Shown: one piece after another, positions 47,412 to 62,299 of the stretch
How positions within the stretch are numbered: position 1 is the stretch's first letter
Layout of the letters: each line of letters starts with the position of its first letter
Assembly: GCF_900107535.1 (NCBI RefSeq)
Contig: NZ_FNRA01000001.1
Span: forward strand, 496,001 to 560,000
Source: Pedobacter hartonius
GTDB taxonomy: Bacteria > Bacteroidota > Bacteroidia > Sphingobacteriales > Sphingobacteriaceae
Direction of reading: 5' to 3'
DNA: 64,000 nucleotides
Position numbers and translations under genes: made by a program
Notes under the pieces: model-generated
Database searches by the model: none
What the model saw: the letters and a program-made list of their open reading frames with translations, nothing else
What the model was told of the DNA's origin: nothing

Positions 47412-47476
47412 TGACCTCCGTCACCTTTTAACATTTCTTCAATCATTTTATGAATGCGTTATACCATATATTTTTG
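47412..47476 (+). promoter_or_regulatory. Crp/Fnr-type site and promoter of ccoI
   Basis: TGACCTCCGTCA (47412-47423) is a TGA-N6-TCA palindrome. A perfect -7 TATTTTTG lies at 47469-47476. The centre of the site is 58.5 bases from the last base of the -7 element, two helical turns more than at the hemN-type promoters. Class I activation near -63.5 is inferred. The protein start is at 47494. Confidence 0.65.
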
Positions 47477-49887: not shown

Positions 49888-50072
49888 ACATCATATACAT
49901 GCTGATCGGATTCAGTATTCTGCTGGCCCTTGTCTTCCTGCTGGCCTTTTTCTGGGCAAGCCGGTCCGGCCAGAACGACGATCTCTACACGCCGGGTATA
50001 CGGATACTGTTTGATGATGACGCCCCTCCGGCAGATGAAAAAAAAAGTGATGAAGATCATCCACATCCATAG
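49884..50072 (+). CDS. ccoS: cbb3 oxidase maturation protein CcoS
   Basis: CcoS is a small single-pass membrane protein for cofactor insertion into cbb3 oxidase. The 62-residue product has one helix (about residues 5-26), then SGQNDDLYTPGIRILFDDD, the family's signature, and a His/Asp-rich tail. It overlaps ccoI by four bases. The last 25 bases of its reading frame contain the TGATGAAGATCA site that may regulate ccoN. Confidence 0.93.
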   Translation: MNIIYMLIGFSILLALVFLLAFFWASRSGQNDDLYTPGIRILFDDDAPPADEKKSDEDHPHP

Positions 50073-50139: not shown

Positions 50140-52251
50140 ATGACTGAAAAATTTTATTACGATAACAAGACCGTCAGAAATTTCGCTATCGCCACTATTG
50201 TCTGGGGAATAGTAGGAATGACGGTGGGACTGCTGATTGCCATGCAGCTCTTCAAACCTGCATTGAATATGGGCAACCAGTACACTACATTCGGACGTAT
50301 CCGGCCGTTACATACCAATGCAGTCATCTTTGCCTTTGTAGGTAACGCCATCTTCATGGGCGTCTATTACTCCTTGCAGCGGCTCCTTAAAGCAAGGATG
50401 TTCAGCGACGTCCTCAGCAATATTCATTTCTGGGGCTGGCAGCTGATTATTGTGGCTACAGCAATCACCCTTCCGCTGGGTTTCACCACCTCGCATGAAT
50501 ATGCCGAGATGGAATGGCCGATAGACATCGCCATCACAGTCATATGGGTAGTGTTTGGTATCAATATGTTTGGTACGATCATTAAAAGAAGGGAAAAACA
50601 TATGTATGTGGCCATCTGGTTCTACATCGCAACGTTTGTTACCGTAGCCGTGCTGCATATTGTAAATTCAATGGAATTGCCCATCTCGGCCTTTAAAAGC
50701 TATTACCTGTACGCCGGTGTACAGGATGCACTGGTACAATGGTGGTATGGCCATAATGCCGTAGCATTTTTCCTGACCACACCCTACCTCGGGATGATGT
50801 ATTACTACCTGCCAAAAATGGCAGATCGCCCGGTATATTCCTATAAATTGAGTATCCTTCATTTCTGGTCGCTCATTTTCATCTATATCTGGGCAGGCCC
50901 CCATCACCTGTTGTATACCTCGCTGCCAACCTGGGCACAATCTTTAGGGGTAGCTTTCTCAATCATGCTGATCGCACCAAGCTGGGGCGGTATGATCAAC
51001 GGCCTGCTTACGCTGCGCGGGGCCTGGGATAAAGTAAGAGAGGATCCAAGGCTGAAATTTATGGTAGTGGGGATCACCTGTTACGGTATGGCCACATTTG
51101 AAGGGCCAATGCTTGCCTTAAAACAGATCAATGCCATCGCACACTATACCGACTGGATAGTGGCACACGTACACGTAGGTGCCCTGGGCTGGAACGGATT
51201 CCTGACCTTTGCTATCCTGTACTGGCTGATACCAAGAATCTATAACACAACTCTATATTCCGTAAAACTGGCTTCCTTCCATTTCTGGATAGGCACCCTG
51301 GGAATTATCTTCTATGCAGTGCCACTTTACTTTTCAGGTTTCACACAGGGACTGATGTGGAAAGAATTTACCCCGGAAGGACTATTGAAATACCCGAACT
51401 TCCTGGAAACTGTCAGACAGATCATCCCGATGTATGTGATGAGAGCGATAGGAGGTGCATTATATCTTTCCGGTGTGTTGGTGATGGCCTATAACCTGAT
51501 CAAAACAATGGCTTCCGGTAGCCTGGTAGCAAATGAAGCTGCAGAGGCCAGCCCACTGCCAAAGGTGTACCTGGCGGAGGGTTCCGATAAAAAATGGCAC
51601 AGGGTGCTGGAACGCAAACCTATGCTTTTCATGGTGCTGTCGCTGATCGTGATCCTGATCGGGGGGATGATCGAGATGATGCCAACCTTTACCATCAAAT
51701 CCAACATTCCAACCATTGCAAGCGTAAAACCTTATTCACCGCTGGAACTGCAGGGGCGCGACCTGTATATCAGGGAGGGCTGTGTGAACTGCCACTCGCA
51801 GATGATCCGTCCGTTCCGTTCCGAAACAGAACGTTACGGTGAATACAGTAAAGCAGGTGAATTCGTTTACGACCACCCTTTTCTCTGGGGATCCAAACGT
51901 ACCGGCCCTGATCTGCAGCGCGAAGGCGGAAAGTATGGCAATGCCTGGCATTACAATCACCTGTTCGACCCGCAGACCATGTCGCCCGGCAGTATTATGC
52001 CTCCGTACGAATGGCTGATCAACCAGCAGCTGGATACTACCACCACCCGTTCAAAGATCAATGCCATGCGTTCCCTGGGTGTACCCTATGAAACCGGTTA
52101 CGAGCTGCTGGCAAATGCGGCATTGGAAAAACAGGCGAAAAGTATTGCGGCAGATCTGAAACAGAACAACATAAAGGTGAAAAGCGACAGGGAGATCGTA
52201 GCGATCATTGCCTACCTCCAGCGCCTGGGAACAGATATCAAAGCTAAATAA
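50140..52251 (+). CDS. cbb3-type cytochrome oxidase, fused subunits I and II (CcoN-CcoO)
   Basis: This 703-residue protein joins the CcoN heme-copper catalytic subunit (about residues 1-470, 12 helices; LHTNAVIFAFVGNAIF, HYTDWIVAHVHVGALGW and WWYGHNAVAFFL contain His ligands of hemes and CuB) to a CcoO-like mono-heme cytochrome c. The heme motif is CVNCH at Cys548, Cys551, His552, and a Met ligand is probably in SPGSIMPPY. The enzyme is a high-affinity terminal oxidase reducing oxygen with cytochrome c. The fusion is common in Bacteroidota. It is followed by ccoQ, ccoP and ccoG. Confidence 0.95.
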   Translation: MTEKFYYDNKTVRNFAIATIVWGIVGMTVGLLIAMQLFKPALNMGNQYTTFGRIRPLHTNAVIFAFVGNAIFMGVYYSLQRLLKARMFSDVLSNIHFWGWQLIIVATAITLPLGFTTSHEYAEMEWPIDIAITVIWVVFGINMFGTIIKRREKHMYVAIWFYIATFVTVAVLHIVNSMELPISAFKSYYLYAGVQDALVQWWYGHNAVAFFLTTPYLGMMYYYLPKMADRPVYSYKLSILHFWSLIFIYIWAGPHHLLYTSLPTWAQSLGVAFSIMLIAPSWGGMINGLLTLRGAWDKVREDPRLKFMVVGITCYGMATFEGPMLALKQINAIAHYTDWIVAHVHVGALGWNGFLTFAILYWLIPRIYNTTLYSVKLASFHFWIGTLGIIFYAVPLYFSGFTQGLMWKEFTPEGLLKYPNFLETVRQIIPMYVMRAIGGALYLSGVLVMAYNLIKTMASGSLVANEAAEASPLPKVYLAEGSDKKWHRVLERKPMLFMVLSLIVILIGGMIEMMPTFTIKSNIPTIASVKPYSPLELQGRDLYIREGCVNCHSQMIRPFRSETERYGEYSKAGEFVYDHPFLWGSKRTGPDLQREGGKYGNAWHYNHLFDPQTMSPGSIMPPYEWLINQQLDTTTTRSKINAMRSLGVPYETGYELLANAALEKQAKSIAADLKQNNIKVKSDREIVAIIAYLQRLGTDIKAK

Positions 52252-52267
52252 TATAACCAATCAAGAC

Positions 52268-52447
52268 ATGTTCAAGCAATTTTTAGATCATGCTGACGGA
52301 AACCAGGGGTATCTGCTCAGCTCACTCGGAGTCTTCATGTTATTTTTCATCCTCGTGGCGGTACTGCTGCTGACCATGAAAAAAGAAGATATCCAATATA
52401 TGAAAGAACTCCCATTAAAAGACGACGGCAATGAAAGAGGTAGTTAA
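52268..52447 (+). CDS. ccoQ: cbb3 oxidase subunit CcoQ-like
   Basis: From ATG 52268 the product has 59 residues with one membrane helix (about residues 16-35) and an acidic/basic tail (KKEDIQYMKELPLKDDGN). Position between ccoNO and ccoP and size fit CcoQ, which stabilises the complex. A longer frame from 52208 would lie within ccoNO and is rejected. Its last 17 bases overlap ccoP. Confidence 0.8.
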   Translation: MFKQFLDHADGNQGYLLSSLGVFMLFFILVAVLLLTMKKEDIQYMKELPLKDDGNERGS

Positions 52448-53267
52448 CAACAGCTGGTCTACAGGGAATACCTCTGCAGACATCGTGATTGTCCTGATGA
52501 TTATCACTTCCATCATGGTACTTGGCGTAGCTATCCTCATGCTGAAAGTGATCAAATTTTATGTAAAAGAGACCATTAATCCTGTTCCCTTTGCTACACC
52601 TGAAGAAAGAGAGATCAGAAAGCTTGAAGCAGAAGCCCTCAGGGCACTGGAGAAAAAGAAACCTACCATCTGGACCAAACTGATGCAGCTGAAACCCCTG
52701 GAGGAAGAAGGCTCGCTGGTCATGGAACACAAGTTTGACGGAATCTCGGAATTGAACAATCCTACTCCTGCCTGGTTCATGGTGCTTTTTTACGGTACGA
52801 TCATATTCGGGATCGGGTATTTCCTGAACTACCATGTATTTCATTATGGAAAGTTACAGGATGAGGAATATGTTGCGGAAATAGAAAAAGCTGCCGACGA
52901 TAAAGTTGCATTCCTGTCTAACCCGGTGAATTCAGCAAGTGCTGTAAATGAAAATAACATTGTACAGAGCAAAGATGCAGCAGTACTGAAAAATGGCCAG
53001 GCCTTATTTGCCACCCGCTGCCCGCCTTGTCATGGTGAACAGGGACAGGGATTGGTGGGGCCAAACCTGACAGATGAATACTGGCTGCATGGCGGAAAAA
53101 TAAAAGACGTATTTAAAACCATCAAATACGGTGTGCCTGAAAAAGGAATGATCTCCTGGGAGAAATCTATGAGTGCCCGGCAGATCGCAGACATTGCCAA
53201 TTACGTGCTGTCTATACAAGGAACGAAACCTGCCGACCCAAAAGCTCCACAGGGTAACAAAGAATAA
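52431..53267 (+). CDS. ccoP: cbb3 oxidase subunit III, mono-heme CcoP
   Basis: CcoP is the membrane-anchored cytochrome c that passes electrons to CcoO. The 278-residue protein has an N-terminal helix and a second helix near residue 110 (PTPAWFMVLFYGTIIFGIGYFLNYH). It has one heme c site, CPPCH at Cys197, Cys200, His201, with GMISWEKSM providing a Met ligand. Proteobacterial CcoP has two heme sites; a single one is usual in Bacteroidota. It overlaps ccoQ by 17 bases and is followed two bases later by ccoG. Confidence 0.92.
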   Translation: MKEVVNNSWSTGNTSADIVIVLMIITSIMVLGVAILMLKVIKFYVKETINPVPFATPEEREIRKLEAEALRALEKKKPTIWTKLMQLKPLEEEGSLVMEHKFDGISELNNPTPAWFMVLFYGTIIFGIGYFLNYHVFHYGKLQDEEYVAEIEKAADDKVAFLSNPVNSASAVNENNIVQSKDAAVLKNGQALFATRCPPCHGEQGQGLVGPNLTDEYWLHGGKIKDVFKTIKYGVPEKGMISWEKSMSARQIADIANYVLSIQGTKPADPKAPQGNKE

Positions 53268-53269
53268 AA

Positions 53270-54667
53270 ATGTCACAAAGTCCTGCGCATTTCAGAGACC
53301 AGACCGGTACGGTTACTGATGATGGAAAAAAAAGAAAATGGCTGTACCCCAAGCTGATCAGGGGTAAGTTGTATAAGTACCGCGCCGTGGTCAGCTATTT
53401 TTTTCTCATTTTACTATTTGCTGCGCCATTCATTAAACTCAATGGCGAGCAAGTGGTACTCTTAAATGTACTGGAACGAAAATTGGTGTTCTTTGGCCTG
53501 ATCTTCTGGCCGCAGGATTTTTATCTTTTTGTACTGGCACTGCTCACCTTCATTGTTTTTGTGGTGCTGTTTACCGTAGTTTTTGGCAGGGTCTTCTGCG
53601 GCTGGGTATGCCCTCAGACGATCTTCCTGGAAATGGTATTCCGAAGAATTGAAACCTGGATAGAGGGCGAACCTGCCAAACGGAAGAAACTGGATGAGCA
53701 AGCCCTGGATTTCGAGAAATTCTGGAAGAAAACCCTGAAACACAGCCTTTACCTGCTCGTATCCTTCCTGATCGCCAACATCTTCCTGTCCTACCTGATT
53801 GGCAGCGGCGGATTACTTGCAATTGTGGGGGAACCTGTGTCGATGCACCTGTCCGGATTCATTTCCATCTGTGTTTTTACTTTCGTTTTCTACCTGGTAT
53901 TTTCTAAAATGAGGGAGCTGGTTTGTACGGTGGCCTGTCCTTACGGGCGCCTGCAAGGAGTACTGCTGGATAATCAGAGTATCATTGTGGCGTATGACTA
54001 CAACCGTGGCGAACCCAGGGGGAAAAGGATTAAAGCACAGGAACAGCTTACGGGCGACTGCATCGATTGCGGCTTATGCGTACAGGTATGCCCTACCGGT
54101 ATTGACATCAGGAACGGCACCCAAATGGAATGCGTCAATTGTACCGCCTGCATTGATGCCTGTGACATGGTCATGGAGAAAATTCAACGCCCAACAAGGC
54201 TTATCGGGTTTAAGTCTGAAGATGAGATTCTGGCAAAAAAATCTTTTATACTGAACAAACGGATCTACGGGTATGCAGCAGTGCTGCTGCTCCTGATGGG
54301 CACACTAGCCTATTTGCTGGTCAGCCGGAGCGATGTAGAGACCACCATCCTCAGGGCAGGAGGAACACAGTATCAGCTGCGCGATAAGGAGCATACGGTG
54401 AGTAACCTGTACAATGCCGAACTGGTCAATAAAACCACCCGCCCGCTGCGTTTTGCTATCGTACCGGATAACCCCCTGGCGAAGATCCAGTACATCCAAA
54501 AGGAAGACCGCCTGGCCGTTGGCGGCAGTATAAAGATCACATTTTTTGTGATCCTGCCACAGGCTTCCATCCGTCAGTATAAATCGGCCATCGGCTTTAA
54601 ATTAATATCCGGCGGCAAACAGACCGCTCATTTTGAAACTACATTTATTGCACCTGCTAACGACTAA
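53270..54667 (+). CDS. ccoG: cbb3 oxidase accessory ferredoxin-like protein CcoG
   Basis: CcoG (FixG/RdxA) is a membrane-bound polyferredoxin thought to reduce copper for cbb3 assembly. The 465-residue protein has helices around residues 40-60, 85-105, 160-180, 195-215 and 340. Two cluster motifs are CIDCGLCVQVCP and CVNCTACIDACD, followed by an Ig-like C-terminal domain (about 360-465). FCGWVCPQTIF (about residues 108-118) is also conserved in the family. It lies two bases behind ccoP and three before ccoH. Confidence 0.95.
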   Translation: MSQSPAHFRDQTGTVTDDGKKRKWLYPKLIRGKLYKYRAVVSYFFLILLFAAPFIKLNGEQVVLLNVLERKLVFFGLIFWPQDFYLFVLALLTFIVFVVLFTVVFGRVFCGWVCPQTIFLEMVFRRIETWIEGEPAKRKKLDEQALDFEKFWKKTLKHSLYLLVSFLIANIFLSYLIGSGGLLAIVGEPVSMHLSGFISICVFTFVFYLVFSKMRELVCTVACPYGRLQGVLLDNQSIIVAYDYNRGEPRGKRIKAQEQLTGDCIDCGLCVQVCPTGIDIRNGTQMECVNCTACIDACDMVMEKIQRPTRLIGFKSEDEILAKKSFILNKRIYGYAAVLLLLMGTLAYLLVSRSDVETTILRAGGTQYQLRDKEHTVSNLYNAELVNKTTRPLRFAIVPDNPLAKIQYIQKEDRLAVGGSIKITFFVILPQASIRQYKSAIGFKLISGGKQTAHFETTFIAPAND

Positions 54668-54670
54668 ATT

Positions 54671-55093
54671 ATGAATTGGGGAACAAAAATAGTACTGGGA
54701 CTGGCCACGTTTATGATCTTTATCGTCGTATTAGGACTCATCATGTTCAACAGCAAAAAGGATGCGCTGGTTGATAACGACTATTACGAGAAAGGCATCA
54801 ATTACAACAAGGTATACAACCGCAAAGAACAAACGAATACCGACCATGCCAGGCCGGAAGTATCCGCAAATCAGGAGATGATCATTGTTAAGTTTGTGCA
54901 CAATGCCAAAGGAACAGCGAGGCTGATGCGCACATCCGATAAAGAGCTGGACAAGACCATCCCATTTGAAAGTAACATCAACCGTCAGCTGATCATTCCT
55001 GCCAGGAACCTTAAAAAAGGGTCATGGAGACTGATCATAGAGTGGGTCAGCGATGAGAAAAGTTATATGTACGAACAGGAAATCACTTTATAA
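54671..55093 (+). CDS. ccoH: FixH/CcoH family protein
   Basis: A 140-residue single-pass membrane protein with an N-terminal helix (about residues 6-27), DNDYYEKGINYNKVYNRKEQ, the FixH signature, and an Ig-like C-terminal domain. FixH is required for cbb3 assembly and copper delivery. The gene starts three bases after ccoG and is the next gene in the assembly operon. Confidence 0.88.
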   Translation: MNWGTKIVLGLATFMIFIVVLGLIMFNSKKDALVDNDYYEKGINYNKVYNRKEQTNTDHARPEVSANQEMIIVKFVHNAKGTARLMRTSDKELDKTIPFESNINRQLIIPARNLKKGSWRLIIEWVSDEKSYMYEQEITL

Positions 55094-55113
55094 GGGGTAA
55101 TCAATCAATTGTC

Positions 55114-55794
55114 ATGAGTTATCAAAACCTCGCCTTCATGATCGGCCTACTGGGTAGCCTACATTGTGTAGGCATGTGCGGCCCGCTGGCTTTTGCAGTT
55201 CCTTCCATGCGAAGCGGATGGGGATTCCTGGTATTCAACAAACTGAGTTACCAGGCCGGCAGGATCATTTCATATTGTCTATTGGGGGTGCTGACCGGCC
55301 TGGTAGGAAAGCAGATATGGCTCGCTGGCATACAACAGGGAGTAAGTATCCTGAGCGGGATGCTGATCCTCAGCGCAGCTGCCTCAAGATTGTTTAAATT
55401 CTCTGTCAGCAATCCAGATTCTATTTTTATCAAACCTTTTAACAAAGCCTTTGGATATGCCCTCAAACACAAGGCAAACCACCTGATCATCGGGATCATC
55501 AATGGCTTTTTGCCCTGTGGTTTTGTATACCTTGCCCTTGCGGGAGCCTTAAATACGGGGACAGTAAATTCTGCTGTGAGTTATATGTTCTGGTATGGGC
55601 TGGGTACCCTTCCACTGATGTTCCTCGCCGGGGTCAGTGCAGGTTTTACTACTGCTATCTTCAGGAGAAAGATCAACAGGATCGTACCCTATTTCATGGT
55701 TTTTCTGGGCGTTTGGTTTATTCTGCGGGGACTGGGACTCAACATTCCATATTTAAGCCCCGCTGCTGCCGGCACCATTGCGGATTGCCGGTAA
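55114..55794 (+). CDS. TauE/SafE-family (UreH/DsbD-like) membrane protein
   Basis: The 226-residue protein has six helices and the motif LGSLHCVGMCGPLAF (residues about 13-27) with two Cys, and FLPCGFVYLALAGAL in the middle. This pattern is shared by the heavy-metal/urease-accessory UreH-like and CcdA-like families often coded beside cbb3 assembly genes. It may move copper or reducing equivalents. It starts 21 bases after ccoH. The last 40 bases contain nested stems (55755-55762 with 55797-55804), probably the operon terminator. Confidence 0.82.
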   Translation: MSYQNLAFMIGLLGSLHCVGMCGPLAFAVPSMRSGWGFLVFNKLSYQAGRIISYCLLGVLTGLVGKQIWLAGIQQGVSILSGMLILSAAASRLFKFSVSNPDSIFIKPFNKAFGYALKHKANHLIIGIINGFLPCGFVYLALAGALNTGTVNSAVSYMFWYGLGTLPLMFLAGVSAGFTTAIFRRKINRIVPYFMVFLGVWFILRGLGLNIPYLSPAAAGTIADCR

Positions 55795-55827: not shown

Positions 55828-57192
55828 TCAGCCGGCCATACTGAACAACTGCGTTTGCGGTTGATTGGCCCATAACCTGGAATCCAGCGCCATGCAGATA
55901 TTCCGCAGAAATCTTTTGCCCAATAAAGTGACACGGAGCTGATGGTCTTCAAGAATGACCAGCCCGTCATCAGCAATCAGTTTCATCCGCTCCAGGCCCT
56001 CCAGAAAAGCTTCGTTCCGTTCCTCGGGCAGAAACCACGAGGTCTCCCCTTTACACATCAGGTTCAGGATATGCCTTCTGAGCACCAGGTCTTCCCCGGT
56101 AAGGATATGTCCTTTAAAAACAGGAAGTTCCCCTGCATTTACCAGCTCCAGGTACTCTTCCACCTTTTTTACATTTTGTGCAAAGGCTGTCCAGCTGTCG
56201 CTGATGGAAGAAACGCCCAGACCAATCATCAGCTTGCTGTACTGATGGGTATAGCCCATAAAATTACGGTGCAGCCTGCCTTCTTTTTCAGCGGTGTATA
56301 AACTATCAGATTCCAATGTAAAATGGTCCATTCCGATCTCGGTATAACCTCCATTTTTCAACAGCTCGCGCCCAAGTTCATAGAGCTCCTGTTTCTGTCT
56401 GGCATCAGGAAGATCCTTTTCAGTATACCTGCGCTGTCCGGGTTTCACCCATGGCACATGGGCATAACTATAAAATGCAATGCGGTCAGGGCGCAGTGCC
56501 AAAACAGCGCTGATCGTTGCAGAAAGCCCTTCGGCATCCTGCAAGGGCAAGCCATAGATGAGGTCGTAGCTGACAGAGTTATAGCCTGTCGCACGTGCCT
56601 CTTCGGTTACCCGGGCAACCTCTTCAACGCTCTGGATCCTGTTGATCACCAGCTGTACCTTGGGATCAAAATCCTGGATTCCCAGGCTCAGCCGTTTAAA
56701 TCCCAGCCGGTACAGGGTAACCAGATGTTCCGCCGTCGTATTTCCGGGATGTGCTTCAAAACTAAATTCTGCTTCGGGGTGAACGGATGCCGGTGCAAGT
56801 ATACCACCGATCAGCAGGGCCAGGTTCTCAGGGTTAAAAAATGTGGGTGTTCCCCCGCCCAGATGCAGTTCCATGATCACTGGTTTCCCTCCGAAGATCT
56901 TCCGGTAGGTGTCCCACTCTTTCAGTACAGCCGCGATATAAGGCCGTTCAACCCCATGGTTGCGCGTGATACGCGTATTGCAGCCGCAATAGGTACACAG
57001 GCTCTCACAGAAAGGTAAATGGATATATAAGCTGATGCCATCAGTGGCATTGCTGTGGTTGAACGAACTGCGGACCTCCCGGATCCATCGCTCTTCGTCG
57101 AACCCTTCTTTGTCCCAGTAAGGAACGGTAGGGTAACTGGTATAGCGGGGTGCTGCCACATGATATCTGGCTACGAGATCTTTAATGCTCAT
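55828..57192 (-). CDS. hemN: Oxygen-independent coproporphyrinogen III oxidase
   Basis: HemN decarboxylates coproporphyrinogen III under low oxygen with S-adenosylmethionine. The 454-residue protein has the radical-SAM cluster motif CxxxCxxCxC at Cys62, Cys66, Cys69, Cys71 (FCESLCTYCGC), GGGTPTFF near 114, and a C-terminal HemN domain. It is co-transcribed with the LDH-like gene, overlapping it by 11 bases. Its promoter is the Crp/Fnr-type site at 57694-57705. Heme supply for the bd and cbb3 oxidases is the obvious role. Confidence 0.96.
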   Translation of the reverse strand: MSIKDLVARYHVAAPRYTSYPTVPYWDKEGFDEERWIREVRSSFNHSNATDGISLYIHLPFCESLCTYCGCNTRITRNHGVERPYIAAVLKEWDTYRKIFGGKPVIMELHLGGGTPTFFNPENLALLIGGILAPASVHPEAEFSFEAHPGNTTAEHLVTLYRLGFKRLSLGIQDFDPKVQLVINRIQSVEEVARVTEEARATGYNSVSYDLIYGLPLQDAEGLSATISAVLALRPDRIAFYSYAHVPWVKPGQRRYTEKDLPDARQKQELYELGRELLKNGGYTEIGMDHFTLESDSLYTAEKEGRLHRNFMGYTHQYSKLMIGLGVSSISDSWTAFAQNVKKVEEYLELVNAGELPVFKGHILTGEDLVLRRHILNLMCKGETSWFLPEERNEAFLEGLERMKLIADDGLVILEDHQLRVTLLGKRFLRNICMALDSRLWANQPQTQLFSMAG

Positions 57193-57640
57193 GATCCGGA
57201 GCTCCTTTCTTCACCTGGTCGCATGCTCCTGAACAAACACAAGCAGAGCCCAGGCAACGGTTCTCCTGCCATTTATCGAGGTTTAGTATCGTTTCTCTTG
57301 CAAGCGCAAGAGGCAGTTCTTCTACCGAAGCCGCTAACAGCGCCGCTGCGGGCACATTGGCAATTTTAATATCCCGGCTTGCTGCAGCATCCTGATCAAT
57401 ATGCAGGGTAACCGTTGACCGGGTGGCGATATATTTTACGCCAAGGTCTGCCAGCTTATGGATCACCGCACCGGTAACATCGTCATCTGTAAATACAATC
57501 ACCGCTTCCTTTCCCTCTGCATAACTCACAGTTTCGTTGCTCAGCGAATTTGATATTAAAGTAATATCATGCTTCTTATGGTTGGCTATCGCCAGTGGCT
57601 CTTTTTCAAAAGACTTTATACTGTAGGCTACTACTCTCAT
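57182..57640 (-). CDS. Stand-alone D-lactate dehydrogenase N-terminal domain with Cys-rich tail
   Basis: The 152-residue protein starts at ATG 57640; two codons earlier there is only a TTG. Residues 1-100 (VVAYSIKSFEKEPL, GKEAVIVFTDDDVTGAVIHKLADLGVKYIATRSTVTLHIDQDAAASRDIKIANVPA) resemble the N-terminal substrate-domain segment of D-lactate/2-hydroxyacid dehydrogenases. The NAD-binding Rossmann domain and catalytic Arg/Glu/His are missing, so dehydrogenase activity is not expected. The tail has Cys129, Cys134, Cys136, Cys140 (CxxxxCxCxGxC), a possible metal or cluster site, then an acidic His end. It precedes hemN and overlaps it. Confidence 0.75.
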   Translation of the reverse strand: MRVVAYSIKSFEKEPLAIANHKKHDITLISNSLSNETVSYAEGKEAVIVFTDDDVTGAVIHKLADLGVKYIATRSTVTLHIDQDAAASRDIKIANVPAAALLAASVEELPLALARETILNLDKWQENRCLGSACVCSGACDQVKKGAPDHEH

Positions 57641-57662
57641 CCGCAATTGATTTGTTAATGAT

Positions 57663-57724: not shown

Positions 57725-58783
57725 TCAGTTTTTCATTTGCTGCAGTTTGGGATGGTCCAGAATGCCGATCTGGCTTCCCTTCCGCTCAATGATCCCTTCA
57801 TCCTTAAAATCACTCAGGATGCGGCTTACCGTTTCCGTTGCCATACCGGCCATTGCAGCGAGGTTATCTCTTGATATACGCAGGCTGATCTGCCCTTCCT
57901 GTTTCTCAAGCTTGCAGAGGCGGATCAGTACTTCGGCCATGCGTTTCCGTACGGAGTGATAGGCCAGCTGCAGCAGCTGTTCTTCTTTATCCAGCAGATT
58001 ATTGGAGAGGATGTGTATAAATTGTCTTGCCACATCCGGATAACGGTTCAGCAGTTCTTCCAGCATCTCCTTAGGGAGCTGGCATACCGTTGTATCTTCC
58101 AGTGCTTCTGCCGTTTCAGTATAAGGTTCGTTGAGCAGCAGTGCGGGGATGCCGAAGTATTCATCAGGGCCGTACATGCCTGTCAGCAGTTCTCTTCCAT
58201 CCTCGCTCAGCTTAATGGTTTTCACCTTTCCGCTCAGCACCAGGTAAATTCCCGAAACCATATCGCCTTCATAATAAATGATCTGTTTCTTCTTGATGCT
58301 GCGCACCTTCCGCTCCAGGATCATCTTATCCAGTTCCTTAATTCCCGCATTTCCCGCCGCCAGATGTGTGAGCTGTGCAATGGATTTGCTATAGAATTTT
58401 TCCTGCTTTTGTTTTTTATTCAGCCTGCTTTCAATAGCATTCAGCAGCTCTACATCATCAAAGGGTTTCACCAGGTAATCGTCGGCACCCATTTCCATGC
58501 CCTTACGCATGTCCATCCTTTCCGCCTTGGCGGTCAGAAAGATGAAGGGAGTTGCAGTGGTAGCCGGATTTTTATTCAGCAGGTACAGTACCCCGTACCC
58601 GTCCAGTTCCGGCATCATGATATCGCAAAGAATAAGATCGGGCAAATTTGCATTAGCCAGTTCCACCCCTGTTTTTCCGTTATTGGCCTGAAAGACCTCA
58701 TAATCGGCCAGATCGAGTATCTCGGCTATACTTTCCCTGATATCGTCATTGTCTTCAATCACCAGTATACGCTGTTTCTTCAT
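57725..58783 (-). CDS. Response regulator fused to Crp/Fnr DNA-binding protein (FixJ-FixK-like fusion)
   Basis: The 352-residue protein has an N-terminal receiver domain (residues 3-122; acidic pocket Glu10/Asp11, phospho-acceptor Asp54, Thr84, Lys106), a linker helix, a cyclic-nucleotide-like beta-roll (about 140-250) and a Crp-type winged helix (about 275-347). The recognition helix TETVSRIL has Glu317, Ser320 and Arg321, the E--SR pattern used by FNR to read TGAT-type half sites. No Fnr cluster cysteines are present. It ends seven bases after the kinase starts upstream and forms a two-component pair with it. Confidence 0.9.
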   Translation of the reverse strand: MKKQRILVIEDNDDIRESIAEILDLADYEVFQANNGKTGVELANANLPDLILCDIMMPELDGYGVLYLLNKNPATTATPFIFLTAKAERMDMRKGMEMGADDYLVKPFDDVELLNAIESRLNKKQKQEKFYSKSIAQLTHLAAGNAGIKELDKMILERKVRSIKKKQIIYYEGDMVSGIYLVLSGKVKTIKLSEDGRELLTGMYGPDEYFGIPALLLNEPYTETAEALEDTTVCQLPKEMLEELLNRYPDVARQFIHILSNNLLDKEEQLLQLAYHSVRKRMAEVLIRLCKLEKQEGQISLRISRDNLAAMAGMATETVSRILSDFKDEGIIERKGSQIGILDHPKLQQMKN

Positions 58784-58789
58784 AGCTGT

Positions 58790-59974
58790 TTATTTATTAA
58801 AAGAAAGAATAAATGTAGTACCCTTATTGATTTTACTTTCAAACTGCACTTCGCCGTTCATTAAACCCGCATAACGGAGCACTATGTTCAACCCCAGTCC
58901 TGTCCCCGGGATACTGCCGGTATTATGGGCCCTGAAAAATGGCTGGAACAGGTGTTTCTGGTCGGTATCAGGGATGCCGATGCCATTATCCTTGATCGTC
59001 ACGATACATTGCCGCTCATTGATCTCGGTATTGAACTCGATAAAAGTATTTTCCCCGGAATATTTGATCGCATTGTTGATCAGGTTGATCATACAGTTCT
59101 TCAGCAGGTTCTGGTCCAGCATGACCACGCTTTGCAATCCTGTATGCTGGTAGATGATATTCTGGTCCTGCTTGGCGATCATCTGCATTTCTTCAGTAAT
59201 CTCCTCGGCAAGTTTCACGAGGTCGAACTCATGAAATGCAGGCTCTACCCTGCCGGCTTCCAGTCTTTCCAGGGAAAGGAAATCATTCAGTATAGTCGTC
59301 AGGTTGCCAACTGCATTTTTTATCTTATGTACATGTTTTGCAATCTGCGGATTTTCATAAGGCTCAGCATATTTTTCGATGAGAGAAGCAGACAGCTGTA
59401 CAGAACTCAGGGGGGTGCGGAACTCATGTGAGGCCATCGATACGAACCGGCTCTTCATTTGGTTCAGCTCCTTTTCCTTTTCCAGCGAGAGGCTCACTTC
59501 TTCCTTGGCTTCGCGGAGTGCGGTAACCGTTTTCTTTAAGGATTTGGTGCGCTCCTCCACCAGGTTTTCCAGTTCGGCGGCATAATCCCTTAAACGTTCT
59601 TCAGCCTCTTTTTCCCTGGAAAGGTCGTGGATAAAGCCGGTATAGATCTTTCTGTCCTGGTATTGTACTTCACTCACTGCCAGTCGAAAGGGAAATGTAG
59701 AGCCATCTTTTCTGAGGCCTTTCACTTCCCTGCCTTTACCAATGATATGTTTTTCCCTGGTCTGCTGATAATGTTCCAGGTAATGGTCATGTGCAGACTG
59801 CTCAGGCTCGGGCATCAGCATGGAGATATTATGCCCCATTACCTCTTCTGCAGTATAACCAAAAAGTTTAAGTGCCGCAGGATTAATACTTTCCATCTTG
59901 CCCCTGCTGTCAATGGTAATGATACCATCTATTGCCGTCTCAATAATTGCATGTAATAATCTCGCGTTTTCCAT
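58790..59974 (-). CDS. Soluble PAS histidine kinase with FixL-type heme pocket
   Basis: From ATG 59974 (upstream in-frame start is only TTG) the protein has 394 residues: PAS (about 10-125), coiled linker, DHp with SHEFRTP (His183) and HATPase (NLINNAIKYSG, DNGIGIPD, GTGLGLNIV). The PAS segment contains AHDHY and HIIGKGR. His62, His76, Ile77 and Arg82 align with FixL residues His200 (heme ligand), His214, Ile215 and Arg220 (oxygen-sensing) at the same mutual spacing. No membrane helix is present. It probably senses oxygen and phosphorylates the adjacent RR-Crp protein. Confidence 0.82.
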   Translation of the reverse strand: MENARLLHAIIETAIDGIITIDSRGKMESINPAALKLFGYTAEEVMGHNISMLMPEPEQSAHDHYLEHYQQTREKHIIGKGREVKGLRKDGSTFPFRLAVSEVQYQDRKIYTGFIHDLSREKEAEERLRDYAAELENLVEERTKSLKKTVTALREAKEEVSLSLEKEKELNQMKSRFVSMASHEFRTPLSSVQLSASLIEKYAEPYENPQIAKHVHKIKNAVGNLTTILNDFLSLERLEAGRVEPAFHEFDLVKLAEEITEEMQMIAKQDQNIIYQHTGLQSVVMLDQNLLKNCMINLINNAIKYSGENTFIEFNTEINERQCIVTIKDNGIGIPDTDQKHLFQPFFRAHNTGSIPGTGLGLNIVLRYAGLMNGEVQFESKINKGTTFILSFNK

Positions 59975-59998
59975 TGATCGCCTTTTTGGCAAATATAG

Positions 59999-60325
59999 CT
60001 AAATACCAGCTACTGTAATGATCAGGATCAGGCAATGTACCAACAGGCTTAAACCGAAAAGAAAAATAGTGGATCTTGTGTTTGCGCCGCTCATATTAGC
60101 TACGATGTTGGCAAAAAAAATGACCATACTGGTTGCCAGACATGGGATCACGTAACCTCCCAATGAATACACCAGAATGAATGTGAGGGGTACAAGCACT
60201 GTGGCGTGCAAAATAAGGGAAACCAGGAACCAGGCTAACCGATTTTCTTTCTGACCATCGGCAAAGGTGATGTATTTTGTCCATAAAGAGATTGTAGGGT
60301 GGTTTGTTAATACTAAAGTTGCCAT
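59999..60325 (-). CDS. Small three- or four-helix membrane protein
   Basis: From ATG 60325 the product has 108 residues and three membrane helices (about 33-56, 60-80 and 87-108). No family was recognised; motifs are [31 protein letters not shown] and LIITVAG at the end. It is the first gene of the minus unit with the FixL-like kinase and RR-Crp and lies under a Crp/Fnr-type site. It could be a sensor accessory or an oxidase-related membrane protein. The earlier start at 60349 is inside the -7 region and is unlikely. Confidence 0.6.
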
Positions 60326-60346
60326 GATATAATGTTTTGATTGATA

Positions 60347-60389
60347 CAAATATGCGGGCTATGCCAGGCTTCAGCCATGATCGTGGTCA
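60347..60389 (-). promoter_or_regulatory. Crp/Fnr-type site and promoter of the kinase/RR-Crp operon
   Basis: TGATCGTGGTCA (60378-60389) is a TGA-N6-TCA palindrome. A -7-like CATATTTG (60354 to 60347, minus strand) ends 36.5 bases from its centre. The arrangement implies autoregulation of the membrane-protein/kinase/RR-Crp transcript. Confidence 0.6.
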
Positions 60390-60421: not shown

Positions 60422-60464
60422 TGATGCCTGTCATATTTTAAGTTGTGATTTCTGCGCTATTTTG
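60422..60464 (+). promoter_or_regulatory. Crp/Fnr-type site and promoter of the 602-residue gene
   Basis: TGATGCCTGTCA (60422-60433) is followed, 36.5 bases from its centre, by the last base of a weak -7 TATTTTG (60458-60464). The predicted start is near 60469, site at -41.5. It is the divergent partner of the site at 60378-60389. Confidence 0.6.
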
Positions 60465-60490: not shown

Positions 60491-62299
60491 ATGAACCATA
60501 CCTTTCACATTCCAGTTTTGGGATTAGGCTACTCGATCGATACCCCTTTAAAAGTTGCCAGATATGGTATCTCTTCAGTTCTCTCTATTACTGATGACGA
60601 GCTGTGTGAGCGCATGAGAAAGTTTCATGCAGCAGAGAACGGGCTTGTATATCAGCCTATACAAAAAGAAGAACAGGACGGACGGGCCAGGAGGATCACC
60701 GCCTATCTTAACCTGGTCAATCTGCTGGTAGACCAGCAGGTCAGCCGCATCAAAACGGAAAGTTTTGCTAAAGGCAATGATATCCACACTTACTTTGAAC
60801 TGCTTCCTGAACATTCGAGGCCAAAGATGATCTACAGGCATATGATGCAGATGGAAGAAGACGAAGAGAAGGAAGTCCTGCAAAAGGAACTGCGCTGGCA
60901 AATGACGCCAGGCCATATTGATGTCAACATCATGTCGAAAGTAGACAAAGCAAACTATAACGCTGACAAAGAAAACCTGGGCAACGATTATACTGATGCA
61001 GTAGCAGCAATGAGGGGATTTGCAAACAGCACATTACGCTCATCCGTAGTGATTTCTGCAGGCCTGAACCCGCGCCTGTATTCCTACATGGAGACCTGTA
61101 AAGACTTTTATCCGGATGTAACAGGTTTGATCAGGAAGCAGATCATCCTCAAAGTGAGCGACTTCAGGTCGGCCCTGATACAGGCAAAAATACTGGCTAA
61201 AAGAGGCTTATGGGTAACTGAATTCAGGGTAGAATCCGGATTGAACTGCGGCGGGCATGCCTTTGCCACAGAAGGCCTGCTGCTGGGCCCGATCCTGGAA
61301 GAATTCAAACAAAAAAGAACAGAACTGTCCAATGAGCTGTATGCCATTTATCATGCGGCCCTGGAAGCGAAAAACATCCTTCCGGGCAGCAGGCCAGCGT
61401 TGATGATCACCGCACAGGGCGGAATAGGAACTGCCGAGGAACACCGTTTTCTGATGAACTATTACCAGCTGGATGCCGCCGGATGGGGAAGCCCATTTCT
61501 ACTGGTCCCTGAAGTGACCAATGTTGACAAAGACACACTGGATGCGCTGGCTGCGGCAAGTACTGAAGACTATTATGTAAGCAATTCTTCTCCGCTGGGT
61601 GTTCTTTACAACAACTTCAAAAAAAGTACCATGGAAACACAGCGCTTACAGCGCATTGAAAAAGGCAGACCAGGAAGCCCCTGCAAGAAAAAGCTGTTGT
61701 CTACCAATACAGAGTTCACGGCACTGCCAATCTGCACCGCATCGAGAGCATATCAAAACCTGAAGATAAAGGAACTGGAAGCAACCGAAACGGAGCCTGC
61801 AGCCTTCCGCGAAAAGTTTGAGGCGATCACCGAAAAGATCTGTTTATGCGAAGGACTGTGCGCTTCTGCCTACCTGAAGAATAACATACTGAAACCGAGG
61901 GAAAATAAAGCGGTAAGTATCTGCCCCGGTCCAAACCTGGCTTATTTTTCAAAGACTTACTCGCTGAAGGAAATGGTAAACCATATTTACGGAAGGGAAG
62001 CGATCAGCTTTAAGATCAACCGTCCCAACCTGTTCATCAATGAGCTGAATCTATACGTGGACTACCTGAAAAAAGACCTGAATGCGCAGTTACACGACCT
62101 GAATGCTAAAAAGACGAAATACTTTGAGAAGTTCACGGAGCAGTTGTTCAATGGCATCAGCTATTACAGGAACATGATCCCGGAACTGAAATTCAGCACA
62201 GGCCCTGCAGCGCAGGAACTGCAGCAGCAGCTATTAAATGCGGAAGAGAAGTTAAAGTTTATTGCAAAAGACCTGAGTAGGTCTGTCGCCCAGGCTTAA
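60491..62299 (+). CDS. FMN-barrel-like protein with CxCxGxC motif, function unknown
   Basis: The 602-residue soluble protein has a middle part (about 185-420) resembling nitronate monooxygenase or enoyl reductase FMN barrels: SGLNCGGHAFATEGLLLGPILEEF (249-272), MITAQGGIGTAEEHRFLMNYYQLDAAGWGSPFL (305-337) and SNSSPLGVLYN. Cys451, Cys453 and Cys457 form CLCEGLC, with Cys398, Cys415 and Cys478 nearby, possible iron-sulfur or metal ligands. A helical C-terminus (about 510-602) ends it. No close family is recognised. It is under a Crp/Fnr-type promoter divergent from the FixL-like operon, so a low-oxygen role is likely. Confidence 0.7.
   Translation: MNHTFHIPVLGLGYSIDTPLKVARYGISSVLSITDDELCERMRKFHAAENGLVYQPIQKEEQDGRARRITAYLNLVNLLVDQQVSRIKTESFAKGNDIHTYFELLPEHSRPKMIYRHMMQMEEDEEKEVLQKELRWQMTPGHIDVNIMSKVDKANYNADKENLGNDYTDAVAAMRGFANSTLRSSVVISAGLNPRLYSYMETCKDFYPDVTGLIRKQIILKVSDFRSALIQAKILAKRGLWVTEFRVESGLNCGGHAFATEGLLLGPILEEFKQKRTELSNELYAIYHAALEAKNILPGSRPALMITAQGGIGTAEEHRFLMNYYQLDAAGWGSPFLLVPEVTNVDKDTLDALAAASTEDYYVSNSSPLGVLYNNFKKSTMETQRLQRIEKGRPGSPCKKKLLSTNTEFTALPICTASRAYQNLKIKELEATETEPAAFREKFEAITEKICLCEGLCASAYLKNNILKPRENKAVSICPGPNLAYFSKTYSLKEMVNHIYGREAISFKINRPNLFINELNLYVDYLKKDLNAQLHDLNAKKTKYFEKFTEQLFNGISYYRNMIPELKFSTGPAAQELQQQLLNAEEKLKFIAKDLSRSVAQA

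Follow-up and report, generated by a model that had tools for sequence, protein, structure and literature searches.

A FixL-like PAS kinase paired with a REC-Crp fusion regulator near the cbb3 oxidase genes of Pedobacter hartonius: a candidate oxygen-responsive pathway

In the FixL-FixJ-FixK path of Sinorhizobium meliloti and Bradyrhizobium diazoefficiens a FixL-type PAS kinase is found beside a response regulator near ccoN, and an activator of the CRP/FNR class ends the path. FixJ is composed of a FixJ-type receiver (REC) domain and a GerE/LuxR output. The DNA considered here is a 64-kb stretch of the Pedobacter hartonius genome (hereafter the window), which codes for a FixL-like sensor kinase and an adjacent regulator whose REC domain is fused to a Crp/Fnr module, close to genes of a cbb3 oxidase. 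The two proteins probably form an oxygen-responsive pair in which the kinase in its deoxy-heme state phosphorylates the REC-Crp protein and the latter directly activates the cco genes, a phosphorelay taking the place of the FNR cluster.

The resemblance to the rhizobial path lies in the placing of the kinase beside a regulator near ccoN and in the class of the final activator. In contrast, the window has a single REC-Crp protein, its kinase lacks a membrane segment, and kinase core, REC and Crp belong to other subfamilies. A FixL-type sensor paired with a response regulator not homologous to FixJ is also found in the hFixL-FxkR-FixK path of Rhizobium etli and R. leguminosarum, but there fixK is a gene of its own, preceded by a K-box on which FxkR acts, whereas the Crp module of the window is fused to REC (passages of PMC7888657 and PMC4999443). 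The third comparison is FNR, the oxygen sensor with an iron-sulfur (Fe-S) cluster. It shares the effector fold and the operator core, and a four-cysteine homologue is often located beside ccoN in related genomes, while the fused regulators have a REC domain instead of the cysteines. The same Pfam combination (Response_reg, cNMP_binding and HTH_Crp_2) defines a REC-Crp/Fnr architecture class, which surveys of response-regulator output domains may list. Domains and logic are known; no description of their combination, nor of its alternation with FNR, was found in the open-access literature, which yielded no account of the function of a REC-Crp fusion or of such a protein beside a FixL-type kinase. 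The word 'receiver' does not occur in the main text of PMC8510549, devoted to CRP/FNR meta-regulons.

Coordinates are positions in the window, and kinase residues are numbered from the TTG start unless stated (ATG numbering plus 6). Kinase and regulator genes are on the same (-) strand with the kinase upstream and 6 bases between them (Table 1). The original prediction had placed the pair at 57725-59974, which holds for both genes. The ATG at 59974 is the better kinase start compared to the TTG at 59992 because the sequence AAAAAGG precedes it directly. Pfam recognizes PAS, HisKA and HATPase_c domains in the kinase, whose highest 19-residue hydropathy mean of 1.05 agrees with its earlier description as soluble.

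The PAS domain is 46.7% identical to the one of S. meliloti FixL, and its best sequence matches in the PDB are FixL structures (8js5 and 1dp6; E ~1e-29). In the AlphaFold2 model of the kinase (mean predicted local distance difference test, pLDDT, 85.9) this domain superimposes on the heme domain of B. japonicum FixL (2vv6) over 106/106 residues with a Z score of 19.2, a root-mean-square deviation of 1.5 Å and 43% identity (VIA-align), so that the anticipated FixL heme-domain fold is matched by structure prediction. Four pocket residues had been listed, His62, His76, Ile77 and Arg82, correctly numbered from the ATG (68, 82, 83 and 88 in TTG numbering); the S. meliloti FixL counterparts are H194, R208, I209 and R214. 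In B. japonicum FixL, His200 is the proximal heme histidine and Arg220 the arginine of the oxygen pocket, to which Ile215 also belongs. Among 78 close kinases (the window's included, the others chosen at >=60% identity) the proximal His and the Arg are kept in 78/78 and the Ile in 77/78. These three residues stand as FixL-like, but not the equivalent of B. japonicum His214, which is His in 47/78 and Arg in S. meliloti FixL. Heme binding by the PAS domain is very likely on the grounds of its FixL-like sequence, the fold match of the model and the conserved pocket residues. The phospho-acceptor H189 is found in all 78 close kinases and in 49/49 partner kinases across the phylum.

The regulator joins a receiver (Asp54) to a Crp/Fnr-type module, as had been predicted; the Pfam matches of the Crp half exceed their cut-offs and its Foldseek matches are CRP/FNR chains. 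The REC signature D11, D54 and K106 is kept in 56/56 regulators sampled phylum-wide, and D54, K106, E317, S320 and R321 in 81/81 close relatives. This conservation, like that of the kinase features, is far beyond chance. The FNR-like recognition helix E317/S320/R321 of the original prediction holds for the close relatives. At the scale of the phylum E317 and R321 are present at all 56 loci while S320 is found at 10, with Ile instead at 43; as judged from these alignments, the E-S-R helix is a feature of one clade. The AlphaFold2 model of the regulator (mean pLDDT 87.6, predicted template modelling score 0.44) is confident for both domains and weak for the linker 132-144, leaving their mutual placement uncertain. 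No chain spanning REC and Crp is present among the 50 Foldseek matches listed, which are CRP/FNR-family proteins with ~200 aligned columns, although such a structure may still exist.

The sequence of the Crp half bears on its possible input. Positions 212 and 221, which we assigned by eye to the Glu and Arg of the cyclic-nucleotide phosphate cassette, carry Glu in 0/56 and Arg in 0/56 of the fused regulators, which makes cyclic AMP an unlikely ligand. Cysteines at the four FNR cluster positions are found in 0, 0, 2 and 9 of 57 fused regulators and none has three or more. The input has therefore to come from elsewhere.

A scan of genome contigs gave at least 80 loci, of which the best 80 all have the full fusion; they belong to Pedobacter, Mucilaginibacter, Arcticibacter, Daejeonella, Chryseobacterium, Flavobacterium, Dyadobacter and other genera. 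The fused regulator is coded in 117/151 genomes of the family and, at E<=1e-50, in 59/392 genomes of the phylum (38/178 genera), all 59 from the same class or nearer. The kinase gene lies directly upstream in 78/81 close loci (window included); in one of the three others the regulator starts at a contig end. Across the phylum, 56 of 65 places were analysed. A partner, defined as an open reading frame (ORF) of >=200 amino acids located within -150 to +300 bases and having the kinase as best query, is present in 49/56. The pair is thus widespread in Bacteroidota, neither rare nor local. A script rule demanding His, a hydrophobic residue and Arg is satisfied by 13/49 of the phylum-wide kinases, one of which is unconvincing by eye. 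A link between a FixL pocket and Ser320 (9/13 versus 1/43) was rejected: only 3 and 2 changes are required on the tree, indicating mostly shared ancestry.

The link to the cbb3 oxidase comes from co-occurrence and proximity. In the family, 108 genomes have both fusion and ccoN, 9 the fusion only, 7 ccoN only and 27 neither (Fisher p 6e-16, the genomes not being independent). Where both are present, the 40 family genomes with the highest scores include 33 in which no more than 20 kb separates the fusion from ccoN. In the phylum-wide loci, for which 18 kb were fetched, 19/56 include a structural or assembly gene of cco, and 25/56 include such a gene, ccoI or hemN. The phylum count (ccoN in 54/59 fusion-positive versus 207/333 other genomes) was discarded as evidence of co-occurrence, the contrast within the class being weak when counted over the genomes listed (54/59 versus 37/46), and the family table is relied upon.

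ccoNO, the kinase operon and neighbouring genes share a conserved upstream palindrome of the CRP/FNR type, TGAY-N4-RTCA (Table 1), whose description is new here. The window contains 14 sites against 5.06 expected, a number reached in 0/100 shuffles, and an extended form of the pattern gives 34 strand matches genome-wide versus 10 for its backwards control. A search for gapped palindromes had pointed to TGAT-4 and TGAC-4 among others. The counts of upstream regions in Table 1 come from related genomes that are not independent, with upstream regions of <=200 bases dropped, as were matches of <=35% identity (<60% for kinase and regulator). The corresponding shuffles, of single bases in blocks of 50, have means of 0.3-1.7 across the palindrome-bearing gene sets. 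Control regions rarely have the motif: hemN 3/47, ccoP 1/30, ccoG 3/38 and the regulator itself 7/79. The classical FNR box TTGAT-N4-ATCAA was tried and abandoned, TTGA-N6-TCAA having 0 matches in the window and the count with two mismatches being at chance (62 versus 54.8). Because the base preceding TGA is variable, the motif is described only as TGAY-N4-RTCA. It is found upstream of ccoN in 39/48 genomes of the same class with the fusion and in 0/15 more distant genomes; three loci in the class comparison may be wrongly oriented.

Genomes without the fusion show what can occupy its place. All 7 family genomes with ccoN and no fusion code for a stand-alone CRP/FNR protein with an N-terminal Cys cluster, located ~3 kb from ccoN on the same contig in 5/7 and on other contigs of fragmented assemblies in two. 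Of the 108 family genomes with fusion and ccoN, only two have this cco-linked FNR (E<=1e-60); in two more the match is weak. Four aligned cysteines are present in 34/34 stand-alone proteins examined, 32 of which are coded within 20 kb of ccoN (C11, C14, C60 and C113 in L333). These proteins, mostly located at ccoN, have the spacing C-x2-C, C60, C113, which differs from that of Escherichia coli FNR.

Among 77 of the 91 ccoN-positive genomes of the class, the region within 20 kb of ccoN has the fusion in 21, an FNR homologue (E<=1e-38) in 38, both in 0 and neither in 18 (Fisher p 2e-8, kinship ignored). The four cysteines are present in 26/26 homologues examined of these 38. Around the fusion, no other FNR-like ORF was found at 56 loci at E<=1e-6, and both states, fusion or FNR at cco, occur within each of four families. 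From these distributions, it seems that a single class of operator at cco is read either by the fused regulator or by the four-cysteine FNR. The chances are about even that a sensor swap took place in several Bacteroidota families, in which a PAS kinase with a REC-Crp regulator took over from a four-cysteine, predicted Fe-S FNR at the cbb3 genes. If so, a phosphorelay rather than a cluster would now serve the same promoter class, the kinase being of the FixL heme type in the clade of the window. FNR-type proteins, which are found in the same place in related genomes, are a more informative comparison for the pair than FixJ-FixK.

The original prediction viewed the regulator as a FixJ-FixK fusion, which is valid as an analogy but not as descent. 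The kinase core is 22% identical to that of S. meliloti FixL, and four kinases from the same genome score higher; its score of 166.8 bits with the NCBIfam FixL model is below the cut-off of 850. The REC domain is 24.6% identical to S. meliloti FixJ, whereas six other receivers from the same genome reach 35-47%; with a Crp output the regulator falls outside the FixJ family. The Crp half is 26.5% identical to S. meliloti FixK (by our reading, a pSymA gene annotated only as helix-turn-helix protein) versus 29-31% to two CRPs of its own genome and 33-36% to the four-cysteine FNRs of the family. Contig C19 carries, side by side, the most similar other kinase of the same genome (38%) and the most similar REC apart from the regulator's own (45%), which suggests that kinase and REC descended jointly as a cognate pair. 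This paralogous pair (C19:323393-325971) consists of a REC-HATPase-like protein of 390 amino acids followed by a 490-amino-acid kinase with, by eye, two PAS-like repeats.

In the tree the fused Crp parts form one group (20/20) together with a single long-branch stand-alone protein, FixK being apart in a place that is itself unsure. Since the fused parts group together, the REC-Crp fusion probably arose once. Derivation of the Crp half from the four-cysteine FNR was considered, these being the closest stand-alone proteins by E-value, yet the tree leaves the origin open. On S. meliloti pSymA fixL, fixJ, fixT and the helix-turn-helix gene precede ccoN, and the fused regulator of the window aligns in one piece across fixT and the helix-turn-helix gene, annotated there as separate genes. 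Overall, the compared sequences give the pair the look of an independent assembly around a FixL-like PAS domain rather than of a shortened rhizobial cascade.

What the genomes show directly is the domain make-up with its pocket residues, how the genes are paired and conserved, the core of the operator and the alternation with FNR; heme binding, the sign of the kinase response, phosphotransfer, DNA binding by the regulator and activation are inferred from what is typical of the protein families. The soluble kinase would hold heme in its FixL-type PAS domain and, at low oxygen with the heme unliganded, autophosphorylate His189. The phosphoryl group would pass to Asp54 of the adjacent regulator, whose phosphorylated REC domain, of the OmpR/PleD type, would favour a dimer with the Crp/Fnr module set to bind TGAY-N4-RTCA. 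The bound regulator could then directly activate ccoNO, ccoP, ccoG, ccoH and neighbours with no intermediate regulator gene. At the cco locus of these Bacteroidota the pair would do the job that a four-cysteine FNR does elsewhere, with the same effector class and operator core and a different input. The earlier claim of a shortened cascade survives in part: the FixL-type pocket, the adjacency of the REC-Crp gene and the cco link (co-occurrence, proximity and palindrome) are best read as a path that leads from the kinase to a Crp-type activator and skips a distinct FixJ stage, but it does not look like a rhizobial cascade made shorter.

Several observations weigh against this path. The pLDDT of the kinase model, built without heme, is lowest (65-77) over residues 61-90, which include the pocket. 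Partner kinases across the phylum keep the proximal His in 47/49 but R88 in only 34/49, and the Ile is also often lost; since the pocket is less FixL-like outside the clade of the window, heme or oxygen sensing may not be general. Among fusion-positive genomes of the phylum 5/59 have no ccoN. Of 50 fusion-bearing genomes in the class sample, 29 have it more than 20 kb away from ccoN or on a different contig, and 15 of these have an FNR homologue at ccoN, so that the fusion must have other roles in such genomes. The palindrome is missing within 300 bases of ccoN in 9/48 class and 4/13 family genomes with the fusion, and it is found there in 16/27 same-class and 7/7 same-family genomes without it. 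Its presence in the latter refutes the palindrome as a signature of the fused regulator, to which the operator is not assignable by sequence alone.

This presence in fusion-free genomes and the 15 class genomes with a distant fusion and an FNR homologue near ccoN would also be expected if the heme-PAS two-component system were real but controlled only its neighbours or itself, cco being under another CRP/FNR protein such as the tandem CRPs of contig C15. The genome offers candidates: six of its Crp helix-turn-helix domains, the fused one included, are over the family cut-off, and two of the stand-alone proteins have Cys clusters. Such a division of labour is nevertheless rather unlikely, for the C15 CRPs are on a contig other than that of cco, no match to the cco-linked FNR is found in the genome at E<=1e-38, and in the class sample a fusion near ccoN excludes FNR there (both in 0/77). 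A different doubt concerns the cue, which could be nitric oxide or carbon monoxide bound to the heme, the redox state, or heme availability, hemN being a neighbour. FixL-type pockets bind several gases and distant homologues often keep the His alone. The clade of the window, however, retains the tested residues of the oxygen pocket (His, Ile and Arg) and the pair is linked to the cbb3 oxidase, a high-affinity, low-oxygen enzyme; a cue other than oxygen appears distinctly improbable. Hardly credible is the idea that FixJ and FixK of rhizobial type were literally fused and arrived together with fixL by gene transfer. It would account for a neighbourhood logic like that of pSymA, with fixL, fixJ, fixT and the presumed FixK before ccoN, but each of the three parts (REC, kinase core and Crp half) resembles Bacteroidota proteins more than its rhizobial counterpart (FixJ, the FixL kinase or FixK), and in the tree the fused Crp parts keep together, joined by one long-branch protein and separate from FixK, itself of uncertain position.

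The direct path from heme kinase to REC-Crp activator, if correct, joins two well-known solutions for oxygen sensing, heme-based FixL and CRP/FNR, in one short route, and offers a circuit for oxygen control that can be tested, in a phylum for which the open-access literature search yielded no study of cco regulation. The use of the same operator class by either a four-cysteine FNR or a kinase-regulator pair is a natural experiment in which direct sensing and phosphorelay can be compared. It also raises the structural question of how a receiver replaces a ligand or a cluster in switching a Crp dimer.

Table 1. Coordinates of the kinase-regulator pair, of its surroundings and of the palindromes in the window.
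Feature	Coordinates	Strand	Basis or remark
Sensor histidine kinase, N-terminal FixL-type PAS, no membrane segment	58790..59974	-	ATG start; TTG at 59992 possible
FixL-type PAS domain, residues 20-125 (TTG count)	59618..59935	-	VIA-align to 2vv6; conserved His and Arg
Kinase core (dimerization/histidine phosphotransfer and catalytic domains, DHp/CA), HK853-like, phospho-acceptor His189 (TTG count)	58790..59482	-	Z 26.7 to 5uht_A over 171-400
Response regulator, REC fused to Crp/Fnr module	57725..58783	-	Pfam: Response_reg 6-118, cNMP_binding 161-248, HTH_Crp_2 281-350
REC domain, OmpR/PleD type, phospho-acceptor Asp54	58418..58783	-	D54 and K106 in 56/56 phylum-wide
Crp/Fnr module: beta-roll, dimer helix, helix-turn-helix with E317-S320-R321	57725..58363	-	Pfam, model, alignments
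ccoNO fusion of cbb3 oxidase, likely target	50140..52251	+	COX1 and FixO (Pfam)
ccoP, ccoG, ccoH and DsbD_2 gene	52431..55794	+	Pfam for FixH and DsbD_2; position and sequence, judged by eye, for ccoP and ccoG
hemN, oxygen-independent coproporphyrinogen III oxidase	55828..57192	-	TIGR00538 above cut-off
D-lactate dehydrogenase-derived protein without NAD domain, Cys-rich tail; putative target	57182..57646	-	Family searches, homologous ORFs
Palindrome TGATGAAGATCA upstream of ccoNO	50048..50059		15/16 upstream regions, all 15 with site at -82 to -93; shuffle mean 0.34
Palindrome TGATCCTGATCA upstream of truncated D-lactate dehydrogenase gene, overlaps regulator stop codon	57716..57727		64/68 upstream regions; shuffle mean 1.42
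Palindrome TGATCAGGATCA upstream of kinase	60019..60030		57/77, distance varies; shuffle mean 1.74
Palindrome between divergent genes 59999-60349(-) and 60491-62299(+)	60378..60389		Window scan and upstream-region counts
Second palindrome, same divergent region	60422..60433		Upstream regions: 60491 gene 20/25, 59999 gene 13/17
Palindrome TGACCTCCGTCA upstream of ccoI-like ATPase gene	47412..47423		Seen in window scan

The truncated D-lactate dehydrogenase protein keeps the N-terminal ~115 and the last ~30 residues of the enzyme, followed by the tail CLGSACVCSGAC, and is possibly a metal- or redox-binding protein built from the enzyme's outer domain. Its 69 homologous ORFs (window included) divide into 41 short and 28 long ones, with the Cys-tail pattern in 33/41 and 20/28, respectively; some short ORFs without the tail are weak Chryseobacterium matches. 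On the plus strand, the gene at 60491-62299 codes for a protein of 602 amino acids that has two palindromes upstream and is kept at the same place in Pedobacter relatives; it matched no family in Pfam or NCBIfam.

The tandem stand-alone CRPs of the P. hartonius genome (C15:173851-175237) have an N-terminal C-x4-C-x2-C motif and recognition helices with E-x-x-F-R, and the gene beside them resembles mobA by eye. REC-Crp proteins are also found on plasmids, where they are annotated as 'response regulator' or 'transcriptional regulator'; among the 30 plasmid matches listed, more than 90% coverage in one annotated regulator is reached in Hymenobacter, Spirosoma and Runella. On plasmid pHsw1 of Hymenobacter swuensis the kinase and REC-Crp pair is accompanied by group III truncated hemoglobins, a P-type ATPase, ccoS and ccoN, a set that is a plasmid-borne low-oxygen module.

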